Positions 36,563 to 49,147 of a stretch of 49,147 nt of DNA are shown in pieces. Position 1 is the first letter of the stretch; each line of letters begins with the position of its first letter. Made by a program: the position numbers and the translations under genes. The notes below the pieces were generated by a model. It did not search any database and was not told the DNA's origin. It saw only the letters and a list, made by a program, of their open reading frames with translations. The stretch is from Bacteroidales bacterium (GTDB taxonomy: Bacteria; Bacteroidota; Bacteroidia; Bacteroidales; VadinHA17), in NCBI GenBank assembly GCA_029932855.1, contig JAOZPG010000004.1:1-49147 (forward strand), in the 5' to 3' direction.

Positions 36563-38620
36563 ATGAAAGGATACTTATTAGCAAATATATTTTTTCTCCT
36601 ATTACTTATTGTGGTACAGCCGGCATATAGCCAGAAGGCTGTTAGTGCCTGCAGAATAACGGAGGATATTATTATTGACGGATTTCTTGATGAGCCGGCC
36701 TGGCAATTAGCCGATTCTGCAGTAGATTTTGTTCAGATGGAACCTGCAAAGGGAGAAATGGCCACAGAAAGGACAGTGGTCAATATTGCTTATGATGATG
36801 AGAAGATTTACTTTGGAATACATTGTTTTCAAAAAGACCCTTCAACGATAGTTGCTGGCAATCAAAGTCGCGACCAGCTGTCAAAGACTGATGATCTGAT
36901 AGCGATAATCCTGGATACTTATAATGATAACAGGAGTGGCATGGTTTTCTTTGTTAACCCCCTGGGTGTTCAGATTGATATGAAAGTGGCTGATGACGGG
37001 CGCAGTATTGACCTCAACTGGGATGCTGAGTGGGAATCGGCAGTTGCAATAACAGATAGAGGCTGGTCGGTTGAACTGGCTATTCCTTTTCAGTCACTGA
37101 CATATAATAAAGAGCTTAACAGCTGGGGGTTTAACATTGGAAGGCTTATCCGTAATAATATTGAGACTTCATACTGGGCAGGACCCGCAAGTGGTGATTT
37201 CAGGATCTCGCAAAGTGGTATTCTTACAGGCCTGGAAACTCCCGATAAAAAAAAGATAATTGAATTAACGCCTTATTTCACATTAAAATATGAGGATAGT
37301 GATGAAACAGGAAATCATAACAAAATTCTTCCGCAGGCGGGACTTGATGCTCATATAAATATCTCATCAAATGTAGTCTCTCATTTGACTTATAACCCTG
37401 ACTTTGCTACTGTTGAGGGAGATATGGCAAGAATAAATATGACTCGTTGGGAACTAAGTTTCCCTGAAAAAAGATTATTCTTCCAGGAAGGTAATGAACT
37501 GTTTAAGACAAGGATAAAAACATTTTACTCAAGGAGGATAGGGGATATAAATTTTGGGGGGAAGATTAACGGCAAGATAAAAGATTTTAATTTTTATGTA
37601 ATGGATTCCCAGACAAAGGCAGATGATTCTATGGGTATTCCTTCGGCTAATTATACGGCAGTAAGAGTTAAAAAAGATATACTTAATTCTTCGAGCCTGG
37701 GCTTTAGCTATGTAGATAAGAAAACTGATACCAGCTATGTGTCATCAGCCAGTATTGATTATATGTTGAATCTGGGTAAGACATGGAAGATAACAGGACA
37801 AATGGTTGCAAGTTTTCCTGAAGTAACAATGCCTGCAAGTGCATATTTTGTTCGTGTGGCAAAAGAAAACAATATATATCATGTGCATTTACGCTATTCA
37901 TATACGGGAGAGCAGTTTAAGGACAGGGTGAATGAGACAGGTTTTATCAGGGATGATGATATGAAGGAACTGGATAGCGATATCAATTACATGTGGTGGT
38001 TTAAAGATAATGGCATTAAGTATATCAGTGTTTCTAGCTGGTGGAATGTTTTCTGGAGCACAGAAAATGTTATGCGCAGCTGGGGTCTAAGTCAGGAGGC
38101 ACGTATGTACTTGCAGAACCGGTTTAGTCTGGATGTCAGGAACAGCAGGGACTTCAAACTTTATGAGAAAGTGTTTTACAATTATAAGACTGGCATGGTA
38201 CTGGGATATAATTCTGATGAATGGTCAATGGGCATTATTGCCTACTACAAAGGTCGAAACTTTGATGATGATTTTAGCTGGTTACAGGGAGATATACGGC
38301 TTAAGCTTTTTAAGAAGCTATCTATCTATTATTCATTGAATAAGCTTGATTACAGTCCGGATAAAAGCAGGTCCACCCTGCTGAATATTATATCGGTGGA
38401 TTATAACTTTACAAACAACCTGTGGATAAGGGTTTTTGCCCAGAATAATACCAGGGATGACAGGACATACTTTTATGGTAAGTTCGGCTGGCGTTTTCAG
38501 CCACCATTCGGGGCTGTTTACTTCATCTATACGTCCGACACATTTGAAGATCCCCTGCTTGCAGGAAAGAGTTATAATGATATAGCCTTTTTGAAATTCT
38601 CTTACAGAGTGGGGTTTTAA
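36563..38620 (+). CDS. DUF5916 outer-membrane protein with CBM9-like N-terminal domain
   Basis: A 685-aa exported protein (signal ends near PAYSQ). Residues 25-210 form a carbohydrate-binding CBM9-like domain (DEPAWQLADSAVDFVQMEP). Residues 210-685 are the DUF5916 region, with alternating hydrophobic strands and a final aromatic residue (FSYRVGF), so it is probably an outer-membrane beta-barrel. The family is very common in Bacteroidota, function unknown; a role in glycan or membrane-anchored binding is inference. The downstream gene is convergent with only 3 bases between stops. Confidence 0.85.
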   Translation: MKGYLLANIFFLLLLIVVQPAYSQKAVSACRITEDIIIDGFLDEPAWQLADSAVDFVQMEPAKGEMATERTVVNIAYDDEKIYFGIHCFQKDPSTIVAGNQSRDQLSKTDDLIAIILDTYNDNRSGMVFFVNPLGVQIDMKVADDGRSIDLNWDAEWESAVAITDRGWSVELAIPFQSLTYNKELNSWGFNIGRLIRNNIETSYWAGPASGDFRISQSGILTGLETPDKKKIIELTPYFTLKYEDSDETGNHNKILPQAGLDAHINISSNVVSHLTYNPDFATVEGDMARINMTRWELSFPEKRLFFQEGNELFKTRIKTFYSRRIGDINFGGKINGKIKDFNFYVMDSQTKADDSMGIPSANYTAVRVKKDILNSSSLGFSYVDKKTDTSYVSSASIDYMLNLGKTWKITGQMVASFPEVTMPASAYFVRVAKENNIYHVHLRYSYTGEQFKDRVNETGFIRDDDMKELDSDINYMWWFKDNGIKYISVSSWWNVFWSTENVMRSWGLSQEARMYLQNRFSLDVRNSRDFKLYEKVFYNYKTGMVLGYNSDEWSMGIIAYYKGRNFDDDFSWLQGDIRLKLFKKLSIYYSLNKLDYSPDKSRSTLLNIISVDYNFTNNLWIRVFAQNNTRDDRTYFYGKFGWRFQPPFGAVYFIYTSDTFEDPLLAGKSYNDIAFLKFSYRVGF

Positions 38621-45204: not shown

Positions 45205-45236
45205 TTTGAGGTTTTTATTTAAAATAAGTAAATTTG
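45205..45236 (+). promoter_or_regulatory. Consensus promoter of the caspase-fold gene
   Basis: TTTG (45205-45208), 20 bases, TAAATTTG (45229-45236): full match to the Bacteroidota consensus. Transcription starts near 45243, which excludes the upstream TTG start at 45206 and supports ATG 45272 with a leader of about 29 bases. Confidence 0.7.
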
Positions 45237-45271
45237 TAATAATGAACAGGCAATACATAAATAGAGAAATA

Positions 45272-47617
45272 ATGAAGAAATGTAGAATTCTGGGCATCCT
45301 GATACTGAGCTTTATGTTAACTCCTGTATTTTCTAATGGTCAAAGTGCCAAGAAGATTTATAAGATAGGTGAGGAGTTTGTCGATAATCAGGCATATGCT
45401 GACGCTATTGTGCAGTTCACAAAAGCAGTAGAGATGGATCCTGATTTTGTAAAAGCTTATCTTGCCAGGGCTGATGCATATGAACGAACAGGAAAAGATA
45501 AACTTGCTGCAGAAGATTATCAAAGGGCAATGATTTTCGAACCCAAGGATGCTAACATAGCTTATCAGGCAGGAAGGTTATTTAGTAAAACAGGGGATTA
45601 TGAAGAAGCTTTAGTCATTTTAAACAGGGCAACATCAATATCCAGGAAGAACATACCGGTATACAGGGAAAAGGTTAAAGTCTTAATTGCTCTGGAGCGA
45701 TATGACAATGCTTACCGGGTTGCAGATACAGCATTAAAGCTTGATAAATGCAGTAAGAATTATTTTTACAGGGCACTGGCTTCAGAAAAAATGAAGAATT
45801 ATGCTCTGGCTGAAGCAGATTATTCCAGTTCTGTTAAAAGCAATCCTAATTTCCTGGATGCATACCTTGGAAGAGCAAGAGTTGAAGTGCCCCAAAACAA
45901 GCTTGGACTGGCAATGAATGATTGTTCAAAAGTGCTGGCAAGGGATGATAAGAACCTGGAGGCATACCTTATAAGAAGTAATATATACGTTGAGAGGCTG
46001 GATTATCCCCAGGCTATAAATGATGTATCGAGGATAATCCTTATTGACCAGGCAAATGCTGAGATGTATAAGCTTAGAGGCAAGTATTACCAGGATTTTA
46101 ATCAGCATCCTAATGCAATAAATGATTTTAGTAAAGCAATTAACCTTGATCCGGCTAATCCGGAAATTTATTTTTTCAGGGCTAAGTCGTATGAAGAAAT
46201 ACTTGATTATAAGAATGCCAGGAAAGATTATGAATCAATAGGATTGTTATCTAAATATGATGGTGAGGCTATGAGACTGAAGGATGAAGCAGAAGCCAGG
46301 CTTTTTGAGATAAACAGAGAATCAGATAAACCGGAAATTTCAATTATTGAACCGGAAATACTTATGAATAAGACAATAAACCTTCCCTTAAGCAAGGATG
46401 AGGTTCTTATTAAAGGAAAGGTAATTGATGATAGTGAAATATCGAAACTTAATGTAAACGGTGAATCTGTTCATTATGAAAAAAAGGATGAATATTATGA
46501 GTTTCTGGCAAGTATTAATGTTAAGGGAACAGATAAACTTAAGATCACTGCAACAGATATTTATGATAATGAAGGCTTAAAAGAATTTGAGATAAAACGT
46601 ACCGAGGTTAATGGTCCGGTAATAGCTATTGTTGCCCCCTATGCTTCTGATAATGGTGAGGTTTATCTTAGCGATGAAGATGATAATGTTTATGTGGAAG
46701 GGAAAATTACAGATGAAAGCCTGATAAAGAATATTATGATAGAAGGAATGCTGGCAAGTTTCAGGCCGGACATGGAAAATCCGGGTTTCTCAGCTACAAT
46801 AAATATTATGAATAAAAACCAGTTCACAGTTGTTGCAGAAGATATTTTCGGTAACCGGTCTTCAAGCACATTTCATTTGAACAGGGAGGGCGCTGTAAAT
46901 CAGGATAACCCGATGGGAAAGACATGGGTTGTATTTATTCAGAACTCTAAATATGAAACATTTGCCAGGCTGGAAGGTCCTGTAAAGGATGTAAGCCTTA
47001 TGAAATCGGCTCTTGCAAATTATCAGGTAAACAACATTATTACCAAGCAGGATATGACCAAGGAGGAGCTCGATAAATTCTTTTCAATAGAACTGAGAGA
47101 TCTCGTAAGGAGCAACCAGGTAAACAGTATTATGATATGGTATGCCGGCCATGGCAAGTTTATTAATGAAGTAGGATACTGGATACCTGTTGATGCGAAG
47201 AGGGATGATGAATTTACGTATTTCAATATAAGCACATTGAAAGCTTCACTTCAAACATATTCAAAATATGTAACCCATACGCTGGTCGTTACAGATGCTT
47301 GTGAATCGGGACCAACATTTTACCAGGCAATGAGATCGGTGCCTGAAGAAAGAAGTTGTGATGACTGGAGGGCAACAAGGTTTAAGTCGTCTCAGGTTTT
47401 TTCATCTGCCGGATATGAACTGGCAAGTGATGATTCACAGTTTACAAGGACTTTTGCCAATGCCCTTGCAAATAACCCAAATGCCTGTATTCCTATAGAG
47501 AACATTGTTTCCAAGGTTACCATGGCTGTTGCAAGAAATAATCAGCAAAGGCCACAGTTTGGCAAGATAGCAGGTATGGAGGATGAGAATGGAACATTCT
47601 TTTTTATTGCTAAATAA
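45272..47617 (+). CDS. Secreted TPR / Ig-like / caspase-fold (C14) protein
   Basis: A 781-aa exported protein (signal MKKCRILGILILSF..., cleaved near FSNGQ). Residues 25-345 are about nine TPR repeats (for example AIVQFTKAVEMDPDFVKAYLARA). About 360-540 hold two Ig-like repeats, each with a core like VYVEGKITDESLIKNIMI. About 555-781 form a caspase-like peptidase domain: HGKF after WYAG gives His627, and VVTDACESGP gives Cys677, so the catalytic dyad is complete. The start is set by the promoter (see that entry). The partial sensor gene follows after 70 bases. The protease's target and location (periplasm or surface) are unknown; the pairing with a regulator-propeller sensor is suggestive, not proven. 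Confidence 0.85.
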   Translation: MKKCRILGILILSFMLTPVFSNGQSAKKIYKIGEEFVDNQAYADAIVQFTKAVEMDPDFVKAYLARADAYERTGKDKLAAEDYQRAMIFEPKDANIAYQAGRLFSKTGDYEEALVILNRATSISRKNIPVYREKVKVLIALERYDNAYRVADTALKLDKCSKNYFYRALASEKMKNYALAEADYSSSVKSNPNFLDAYLGRARVEVPQNKLGLAMNDCSKVLARDDKNLEAYLIRSNIYVERLDYPQAINDVSRIILIDQANAEMYKLRGKYYQDFNQHPNAINDFSKAINLDPANPEIYFFRAKSYEEILDYKNARKDYESIGLLSKYDGEAMRLKDEAEARLFEINRESDKPEISIIEPEILMNKTINLPLSKDEVLIKGKVIDDSEISKLNVNGESVHYEKKDEYYEFLASINVKGTDKLKITATDIYDNEGLKEFEIKRTEVNGPVIAIVAPYASDNGEVYLSDEDDNVYVEGKITDESLIKNIMIEGMLASFRPDMENPGFSATINIMNKNQFTVVAEDIFGNRSSSTFHLNREGAVNQDNPMGKTWVVFIQNSKYETFARLEGPVKDVSLMKSALANYQVNNIITKQDMTKEELDKFFSIELRDLVRSNQVNSIMIWYAGHGKFINEVGYWIPVDAKRDDEFTYFNISTLKASLQTYSKYVTHTLVVTDACESGPTFYQAMRSVPEERSCDDWRATRFKSSQVFSSAGYELASDDSQFTRTFANALANNPNACIPIENIVSKVTMAVARNNQQRPQFGKIAGMEDENGTFFFIAK

Positions 47618-47687
47618 TGTCTCCCTGGCCAGTTTTTCTTTAAATACCGGGAGAATATAAAATATGATCTAAAATTTTTCAGGGATG

Positions 47688-49147
47688 ATGAAATCAATCT
47701 TTCGTAGCAGGAAAGAAAAAATTATTCGTCAGTTGTGGCGAATAATTTTTTTATTCAGCTTTACTATAGTAGCCCTGGGTGGCTATAGTCAGAATTATTA
47801 TTTCGATAGCTATGGAGTTGAGGAGGGACTCAATTCCTCAAAGGTCTATAACTTGTATCAGGATAGTAATGATTACCTGTGGTTAGGCACTGAAGGAGGC
47901 CTGTCCAGGTTTGACGGTAATAGTTTTAAAAATTATTCTCCGGAAGACGGACTTGCACCTGAAGGGGTTTTTAGCATTTATGAAGAACCCGGGGGAAGAT
48001 TGTGGTTTGGTCACCTGAATGGGGGCATAACAGTCTTTGACGGGGAGGAGTTTTACGAAATGACATTCGATAGCCTGGAGATAATTGGTGATATTACATC
48101 CATCAAAGGGGCCGGGAAGGATTCTGTATGGATATCTACTTCGGGCTCGGGAGTTTACCTTCTTACAGGCACAGCTTCTTATAAAGATGGTATAAGCCTG
48201 AAGCAGTATAAAGGGAATAGTGGTCTTAGCGACCAGGTATTTTCCTCTGCACTTACCCATGGAGGCGATTATTATTGTCTTGCTGATGTGGGGATAAGGA
48301 AATATAACAGGGAAAAGGATGTATTTGAGAATTTTACCCTTCCGGGACTGAGCCAGTATTTTATGAAAACCTGCATGTATGAGGACCGCAATGGGAATTT
48401 GTATTTCGGCACCTACCATGGAGGCTTATATGTATATATGATAGAAAGTGATACTATGCTTATTTATGATAAGCTGGATGTAGTGCAGAATAACTGGATA
48501 AGCTCTATTACCGAAGACAGGAACGGAAATATCTGGGTTGGAACCTTTGGTGGGGGGATTACTATGCTCAGGAAAGACGGATTTGTGAATTTTAATGTTA
48601 CTAATGGCCTGAAGGATAATGAAATAAAATTTATTATAGAAGACAGGGAGGGAAATATTCTTATTGCTACTCAAACACAGGGATTAAGCATCTATAAGGG
48701 AAGCCAGTTTATGACACTTGACAGTGACAACGGACTACTTTATGAAGATGTATGGGCAATTCAGCAAATTGATGACTCAAAATATTGGTTCGGTACTAAT
48801 GATGGGATATCGGTATATGACAGCAAGAAAGCTGAAGCAGAGAGATTTATTCATTATAACCAGAAAAACAGCAAGATACCGGGTAAGATCAGGGTGATCA
48901 AGAAAGGCAAGGATAACAATTTATGGATAGGAACTGCCGGGGGTGGCCTTTTCCAGTATGATATTAAGAATGAAAAATTTATTTACGATACTTACCTGAA
49001 CAGGGGCTTGTACAGAGACAGGATAGTTAAGGCCCTGGCGGTGGATAATAACAATAATATATGGATCGGAACAAATGCATATCTAGCTTTTTGGGATCCG
49101 CTTAAAAAGGAAGGAGCTTCATTTAGCCAAACCAGCGGACTGGCAGG
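47688..49147 (+). CDS. Two-component regulator-propeller sensor protein, cut by the window edge
   Basis: An open frame from ATG 47688 (or 47685) to the end of the window, at least 486 codons without a stop. It has an N-terminal signal or anchor segment (LWRIIFLFSFTIVALGGYSQ) and then many regulator-propeller repeats, each with a form of DRNGNIWVGTFGGG (for example SNDYLWLGTEGGLSRFDG and NNIWIGTN). This is the N-terminal half of the periplasmic sensing propeller found in Bacteroidota hybrid histidine kinases, AraC-type sensors or phosphatases; the output domain is outside the window. It begins 70 bases after the caspase-fold gene, so the two are probably cotranscribed. Confidence 0.9.
   Translation, partial: MKSIFRSRKEKIIRQLWRIIFLFSFTIVALGGYSQNYYFDSYGVEEGLNSSKVYNLYQDSNDYLWLGTEGGLSRFDGNSFKNYSPEDGLAPEGVFSIYEEPGGRLWFGHLNGGITVFDGEEFYEMTFDSLEIIGDITSIKGAGKDSVWISTSGSGVYLLTGTASYKDGISLKQYKGNSGLSDQVFSSALTHGGDYYCLADVGIRKYNREKDVFENFTLPGLSQYFMKTCMYEDRNGNLYFGTYHGGLYVYMIESDTMLIYDKLDVVQNNWISSITEDRNGNIWVGTFGGGITMLRKDGFVNFNVTNGLKDNEIKFIIEDREGNILIATQTQGLSIYKGSQFMTLDSDNGLLYEDVWAIQQIDDSKYWFGTNDGISVYDSKKAEAERFIHYNQKNSKIPGKIRVIKKGKDNNLWIGTAGGGLFQYDIKNEKFIYDTYLNRGLYRDRIVKALAVDNNNNIWIGTNAYLAFWDPLKKEGASFSQTSGLA

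Follow-up and report, generated by a model that had tools for sequence, protein, structure and literature searches.

What would an exported relative of caspases be doing directly upstream of a membrane sensor? Discussion of bacterial caspase homologues mostly centres on roles in death or defence, and the question is raised by two adjacent genes at the end of a 49,147-nucleotide stretch of Bacteroidales DNA (GenBank assembly GCA_029932855.1, contig JAOZPG010000004.1). This stretch, the window, opens a contig of 157,891 bp (positions 1-49147) from a genome of 2.6 Mb. A sequence-only reading of the window had proposed that a secreted protein with tetratricopeptide repeats (TPRs), two immunoglobulin (Ig)-like repeats and a caspase-fold domain forms a protease signalling pair with the propeller sensor encoded next to it. 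In our analysis, the pairing of a caspase-fold protein with a propeller-phosphatase sensor recurs well beyond this locus. We consider, with a probability of roughly 0.45, that the two genes constitute an envelope signalling unit in which the signal runs from the caspase to the propeller sensor, to its phosphatase and to the release of a sigma factor. The results suggest that many little-known Bacteroidia use a relative of human cell-death proteases for ordinary envelope signalling.

The caspase gene and the sensor gene

The first gene lies in an open reading frame (ORF) at 45206-47617 of the forward strand, with a TTG and, at 45272, an ATG as alternative starts. The ATG is the likely start and the TTG an unlikely one, because a signal-peptide-like stretch follows the ATG directly and a promoter match overlaps the TTG start. 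This match, at 45205-45236 of the same strand, fits TTTG-N20-TAnnTTTG, which we take to be the Bacteroidetes-type promoter consensus, and ends 35 bp ahead of the ATG; as chance would produce 2.2 exact matches in the window and three are present, it is weak alone and suggestive only. Counted from the ATG, the ORF and its domain matches define a protein of 781 residues (45272-47617), for which orthologues were recovered. Both the sequence and the orthologue alignment point to a signal peptide at about residues 1-24 (45272-45343), in which Gln24 is nearly invariant, and the protein would thus be exported, as claimed in the sequence-only reading. Profile matches place a TPR region at about residues 25-350 (45344-46321). 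It is followed, at about residues 353-543 (46328-46900), by two repeats of about 95 residues that are 28% identical and match each other with an E-value of 3e-12, so that the proposed fusion to TPRs and two Ig-like repeats holds. No Pfam family was named for the Ig-like repeats in the window copy, and Glucodextran_B matched weakly at them in 5 of 46 relatives.

The caspase (C14) domain, recognised by a profile match and alignments, occupies residues 545-781 (46904-47614) and contains His627, Asp675, Cys677 and Arg688. On the isolated domain PF00656 scored 62.5 bits, over the curated C14 cut-off of 21.4, and the His-Cys dyad is kept in all 67 aligned caspase sequences, bearing out the intact His627/Cys677 dyad noted earlier. 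Asp675, two residues ahead of Cys677, is invariant; an Asp at this position presumably indicates a basic P1 residue in the C14 family. A Pfam scan of the whole 781-residue protein listed TPR-type families only, and C14 was listed in just 10 of 46 full-length orthologues; the 803-residue version of the ORF does show C14, with 58.3 bits. We take these omissions as an effect of the search program's pre-filter, which would also explain why the PF00656 search of the own genome did not pick up the window gene. The low rate of detection by Pfam implies that the family is probably under-annotated. The same genome contains another C14 gene (L003:7154-8500 on contig C33), which encodes 448 residues with a signal peptide, scores 135.7 bits and has no adjacent sensor; it lies near genes that we recognise as those of ATP-synthase subunits.

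The sensor gene starts on the same strand 67 bp after the caspase stop, in line with the distance of about 70 bases given in the sequence-only reading. It runs from 47685 to the window end at 49147 and continues to contig position 50882 (L002:3686-6883). The complete sensor, delineated by profile matches, has 1065 residues and comprises a signal peptide or anchor, Reg_prop repeats, a Y_Y_Y domain, a membrane helix, a coiled coil and a SpoIIE/PP2C domain, the helix and the coiled coil being assigned by eye. The propeller half and the phosphatase half are accordingly predicted to flank one membrane helix. Besides Reg_prop, Y_Y_Y and SpoIIE, Pfam gave just two weaker propeller-type matches. The SpoIIE phosphatase (PF07228; 69.7 bits, cut-off 25) is the output domain that had been sought beyond the window, and its Asp856, Asp873, Asp1002, Asp1055 and Asp1056 (numbered by the first alignment row) are the same in all 36 orthologues. 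Among solved structures, the outer half is closest in sequence to the Bacteroides sensor domains 3v9f (E 3e-56) and 4a2l, and the inner half to the serine phosphatase 6k4e.

Whether the sensor has a promoter of its own, a point on which the sequence-only reading had made the pairing depend, was addressed by two scans. An exact Bacteroidetes-type match is absent between the two genes and present just ahead of the caspase gene; a scan for E. coli-type promoters gave a 9-of-12 site in the gap (47639-47668), in a region where chance would give 11 such sites and 23 are listed. In the two closest named relatives, the genes are 14 and 28 bp apart. The 67-bp gap also contains a short inverted repeat, TCTCCC...GGGAGA, at 47619-47653, where the terminator scan lists no terminator.

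Conservation of the gene pair

Conservation of the neighbourhood had been set beforehand as a test of the pairing, and we chose regions with the caspase alone as bait. The caspase search gave some match in 75 of 118 relatives. In a class sample, 47 of 395 genomes matched at E≤1e-50, including the own genome and nine genomes of family f60 (see below); in a phylum sample of 395 genomes, the own genome was the single match. Regions were taken for 59 of 65 strong places among the relatives (E≤1e-100, own genome excluded), for one locus with a caspase-only match (L108) and for 40 of 54 class-sample places. Together with the own locus, this makes 101 regions, which contain 105 caspase genes of type A (for the types, see the caspase tree below), two of them cut by contig ends. 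A sensor gene lies directly downstream on the same strand in 79 of the 103 judgeable cases and is missing from this position in 24. The gaps have a median of 6 bp and are at most 20 bp in 64 of the 79 pairs; five pairs overlap, and the widest gap is 283 bp. Among the 79 sensors, 64 include the SpoIIE half, seven are adjacent ORFs that are cut or split before it, and eight are the cyclase form of family f60. The pair is present in 15 of 20 families. Within the window's family, every one of the 51 judgeable copies has its sensor, five extra caspase-only genes in one genus being set aside. A named set, the best 80 of 329 relatives, which overlaps with the 101 regions, gave 75 pairs among 78 judgeable loci (the phosphatase half can be seen in 60, and the sensor is incomplete in 15) and three unpaired genes; all 80 loci are labelled as metagenome-assembled genomes, mostly Bacteroidales, Bacteroidota, Bacteroidetes or Flavobacteriales. 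Sequence comparison thus supports the pairing well beyond a single locus.

Which part of the first protein is kept with the sensor can be judged from 46 orthologues, in which mean pairwise identity is 0.76 and 0.74 for the two halves of the caspase domain, 0.43 for the Ig-like repeats and 0.39 for the TPR region. All 71 paired genes outside family f60 retain His627, Asp675, Cys677 and Arg688, and outside this family altered catalytic residues occur solely in unpaired type-A genes (7 of 24). Minimal forms of 261-263 residues, consisting of a signal peptide and the caspase domain only, still precede a sensor at L108 and L109. Conservation by region, the catalytic residues and the minimal forms together indicate that the caspase domain, rather than the TPR or Ig part, is the constant partner in the active lineages. 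The seven altered copies (L278, L283, L285, L286, L292, L310 and L314) carry changes of His to Gln or Arg, Asp to Glu, Cys to Thr or Ala, and Arg to Glu, Pro or Ala. Genus g13 (L059, L060, L062, L063 and L065) has an additional caspase-only gene of 258-270 residues, about 54% identical, ahead of the TPR-Ig-caspase gene.

The genes around the caspase gene are housekeeping genes, namely ribD-, prmC-, recX- and release-factor-like genes. When one locus was taken from each of 14 families, any other flanking gene was common to 12 of 91 family pairs, and ten of these 12 reflect the ribD setting common to f1, f8, f15, f39 and f44; by our own reading, about nine chromosomal settings appear to hold the pair. 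Across 32 genomes, caspase and sensor distances correlate at 0.91, either of them with ribD, prmC or recX at 0.73-0.83, and these three among themselves at 0.79-0.86. After regression on ribD, prmC and recX, the caspase-sensor correlation was 0.72. Ten genomes of the window's family have no caspase match at all; nine of them have only weaker sensor matches (5.7e-101 to 1.4e-75), and the tenth, G036, has kept the sensor. The weakest paired sensor of this family, which is cut by a contig end, matched at 3.4e-109. Elsewhere in the window, a DUF5916 protein is encoded at 36563-38620, with a CBM9-like start below the cut-off.

More divergent caspases were sampled at 60 places taken by list order, some sensor coincidences having already been seen in the lists beforehand. 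A sensor-matching gene lies directly after the caspase gene at ten places and in second position at three, is not found at 43, and is obscured by a contig end at four. The second-position cases are a weak match in a 1385-residue protein (L198) and two loci with a small ORF in between (L218 and L232). A tree of 74 caspase domains, made by a quick method and with some long branches, separates type A, a clade of types B and C, and an extensive type-D clade from one another. Pairing with such sensors is seen in 12 of 14 judgeable genes of the B/C clade, ten directly and two with a small ORF in between, and in the type-D clade (39 rows) none of 38 judgeable genes is directly followed by one; many type-D genes occur in genomes that also hold a type-A pair.

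The sensors themselves bear on how often the pairing arose. In a first sensor tree, a single clade for all paired sensors had a p value in the approximately unbiased test (p-AU) of 0.00026, a value inflated by an orphan sensor nested in group A (L252); two caspase-less group-A sensors (L250 and L251) were also in the set. Without these three, one common origin of all paired sensors is still disfavoured (p-AU 0.0088), and a joint clade of groups A and C is rejected (0.012); the sensor groups were named after the pairing had been seen. More than one recruitment of the sensor is therefore favoured, not proved, by these trees, and an old pairing with many losses is the alternative. At loci L190-L249 (e.g. 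L191, L195, L209 and L211), the genes of many exported type-D caspases, and also of type-B caspases, follow a same-strand gene for a signal-peptide protein of 250-290 residues with an Ig-like start and a VFPGWGN/ILPGAGL segment, and FN3-like lipoproteins are often near. This protein and the type-D/B caspase may represent a second recurring caspase neighbourhood.

A signalling model and its alternatives

The first gene of the pair encodes a caspase fold with a predicted signal peptide and conserved catalytic residues, and the gene directly downstream a predicted membrane sensor. We infer the direction of the signal, the substrate and target of the caspase, and signalling by proteolysis itself. 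In the model that we prefer, the outer parts of the two proteins would meet in the periplasm, where stress or a ligand bound by the TPR/Ig part would activate the caspase. The active caspase would then cut itself after Arg688, a nearby envelope protein, or both, and the propeller would read the processed caspase or the cleavage product. The signal would pass the membrane via the helix and the coiled coil and switch on the phosphatase, which would dephosphorylate a STAS anti-anti-sigma protein, whereupon an RsbW-like kinase would release a sigma factor. In the own genome, a single RsbW-like kinase (143 residues) scores over the cut-off and three STAS proteins are encoded, which makes sigma-factor release by a partner switch the natural candidate for the output. 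Another SpoIIE gene of this genome, L256 (G000:C39:60-881), lies on a 3.2-kb contig and is broken by a TAA stop.

A variant in genus g78 of family f60 bears on the catalytic step. We examined all nine g78 genomes found in the class sample, and the pair is present in 9 of 9, the two genes being 3-63 bp apart or overlapping by 44 bp. The g78 caspase keeps His, has Ala in place of Cys677 in 9 of 9 and lacks the second half of the domain. It ends with FY[DE]LTR or FFDLTR and a stop, the last residue aligning with Arg688, 11 residues past the catalytic position and presumably near the usual activation cleavage site of caspases. According to Pfam, the sensor at L281 has the same propeller and Y_Y_Y families, and a nucleotide cyclase (PF00211, 190 bits) replaces SpoIIE; the remaining eight g78 sensors have a closely similar C-terminal sequence. 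The nine genomes each retain strong RsbW-like matches and 3-6 SpoIIE matches, which rules out the loss of the partner-switch machinery as the cause of the exchange. In lineages with the phosphatase as output, the invariant residues speak for the importance of proteolysis; the f60 variant, in turn, speaks for the ability of an inactive, shortened caspase to act on the same receptor. In f60, the same outer half would drive the cyclase, and the dead, pre-shortened caspase would replace the processed form. We therefore propose self-cleavage after Arg688, which joins the invariant residues with the f60 variant: the cut would release a TPR-Ig-p20 form as the propeller ligand that switches the phosphatase, or alternatively a fragment of a third envelope protein would play this part, and one genus would have fixed the processed form in its gene and rewired the receptor to a cyclase. 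In this detail the model is speculative and, in our estimate, unlikely to be right as it stands.

Several observations count against the preferred model. The dead f60 form shows that catalysis is dispensable there. Families f36, f38, f54, f75 and f112 hold unpaired copies only, 17 of the 24 unpaired type-A genes have all four catalytic residues intact, and sensor orthologues occur without an adjacent caspase in G036, G005 and G107. Strong RsbW-like matches (E≤1e-19) were present in 37 of 40 picked genomes, paired or not, and one paired genome of 90% completeness, G084, has none, so these matches do not single out the unit. In the sensors, Lys338 is the only constant outer basic residue (36 of 36) and no conserved Arg/Lys cleavage loop is obvious, a mild argument against the sensor itself being cut. 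Shared origin was not rejected for sensor groups A and B (p-AU 0.116) or B and C (0.153), which weakens the case for repeated origin; the mechanism is independent of it. At the G036 locus (L250), ribD and the sensor are retained and the caspase gene is missing from between them.

The f60 variant gives most weight to the possibility that binding is the main task of the caspase-fold protein: as a co-receptor, it would dock on the propeller with its TPR-Ig-p20 body and present the stimulus, proteolysis being secondary or lost. There, the pair persists in all nine genomes despite Ala for Cys and half a domain, and the outer half of the sensor is retained while the output changes. This explanation is nevertheless doubtful, since the 71 other paired genes all have their catalytic residues intact, conservation is far higher in the catalytic domain than elsewhere in the protein, and the minimal forms, which have no TPR or Ig part, keep the catalytic residues. 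The same f60 variant is awkward for a reversed order, in which the sensor and phosphatase would control the production or activity of the caspase as an effector, for example one that clears damaged envelope proteins: the dead caspase would be an inactive effector. The operon-like arrangement and the predicted export signal of the caspase fit this order, and effector genes often adjoin the gene of their regulator; a cytoplasmic phosphatase, however, could reach an exported caspase through expression only. We regard a reversed order as quite improbable.

That the two genes are merely co-transcribed neighbours held by general gene-order conservation would agree with much of the ribD-prmC-recX neighbourhood also being kept within the window's family. 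The pair, however, survives where other neighbours differ, recurs in a distant caspase clade, and shows additional correlated divergence of caspase and sensor, which leaves this explanation with little likelihood. An anti-phage defence or programmed-death system, akin to the likeness to immunity and cell death seen in the sequence-only reading, has the least in its favour. Caspase-fold proteases are described as serving such systems elsewhere (PMC8195603, PMC9729208), but here PADLOC yielded only a PrimPol match that is driven by, and covers, the TPRs, and the housekeeping neighbours, the divergence that tracks them and the signal peptide all speak against it. The likeness found no support here, and we consider a defence or death function highly improbable. 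Under the envelope signalling model, a caspase with a signal peptide, a conserved gene order and a phosphatase partner would have a concrete role that does not require death, and the exchange of the output in f60, together with the dead, shortened caspase, highlights the residue and the domain of interest.

Comparison with known systems

Caspase homologues, Reg_prop sensors and SpoIIE phosphatases are already known; we found no description of their fixed combination in the open-access literature, supplements being outside its scope. The first protein shares with orthocaspases (C14) the PF00656 match, the His-Cys dyad and the Asp two residues before the Cys. Prokaryotic C14 homologues with TPRs, or with N-terminal helices that are possibly signal peptides, have been catalogued (PMC3501461); the difference is the constant partner, a propeller-SpoIIE sensor, of which the operon section of that article names none. 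Its main text discusses the operons of 237 metacaspases without this pair, the operon tables being in its supplement. Pseudo-variants without the dyad were given as 10 of 1078 Bacteroidetes sequences (PMC6426788).

The best PDB match of the caspase profile was the MALT1 paracaspase (E 2e-5; 0.2 with the single sequence). MALT1 has Ig-like domains beside its caspase domain; the window protein has no death-domain match, carries TPRs and is presumably a bacterial envelope protein, and the Ig domains common to both may be a coincidence. Among other caspase-fold systems (PMC8195603, PMC9729208), the latter, Craspase, the type III-E CRISPR TPR-CHAT protein, is also a TPR-bearing caspase-like protease and is tied to a sigma factor, which its substrate Csx30 is reported to bind. 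Craspase is RNA-guided and belongs to the CHAT family, unlike the window protein, whose scans gave no CHAT match; no CRISPR gene was found among the neighbours scanned, and no search for CRISPR arrays was made. Two further candidates were rejected by score: PorZ of the type IX secretion system (61.9 bits against an NCBIfam equivalog cut-off of 260, for the 487-residue part of the sensor in the window) and the EACC1-type caspase conflict system (NF047832, 33 bits against 140).

The sensor shares its Reg_prop and Y_Y_Y outer half with the hybrid two-component sensors of Bacteroides (3v9f, 4a2l). In contrast to their kinase, receiver and DNA-binding domain, none of which Pfam found in the window sensor, the output here is SpoIIE or, in one genus, a cyclase. 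Its inner half resembles the SpoIIE/RsbU phosphatases of the PP2C type (6k4e; SpoIIE structure in PMC5468089) in the PF07228 match and the invariant Asp motifs, the RsbW-like and STAS genes of the genome being candidate partners, and differs from them in its predicted control by a propeller and in adjoining a caspase. A cyanobacterial metacaspase is reported to share an expression cluster with an RsbU phosphatase gene (PMC4933709).

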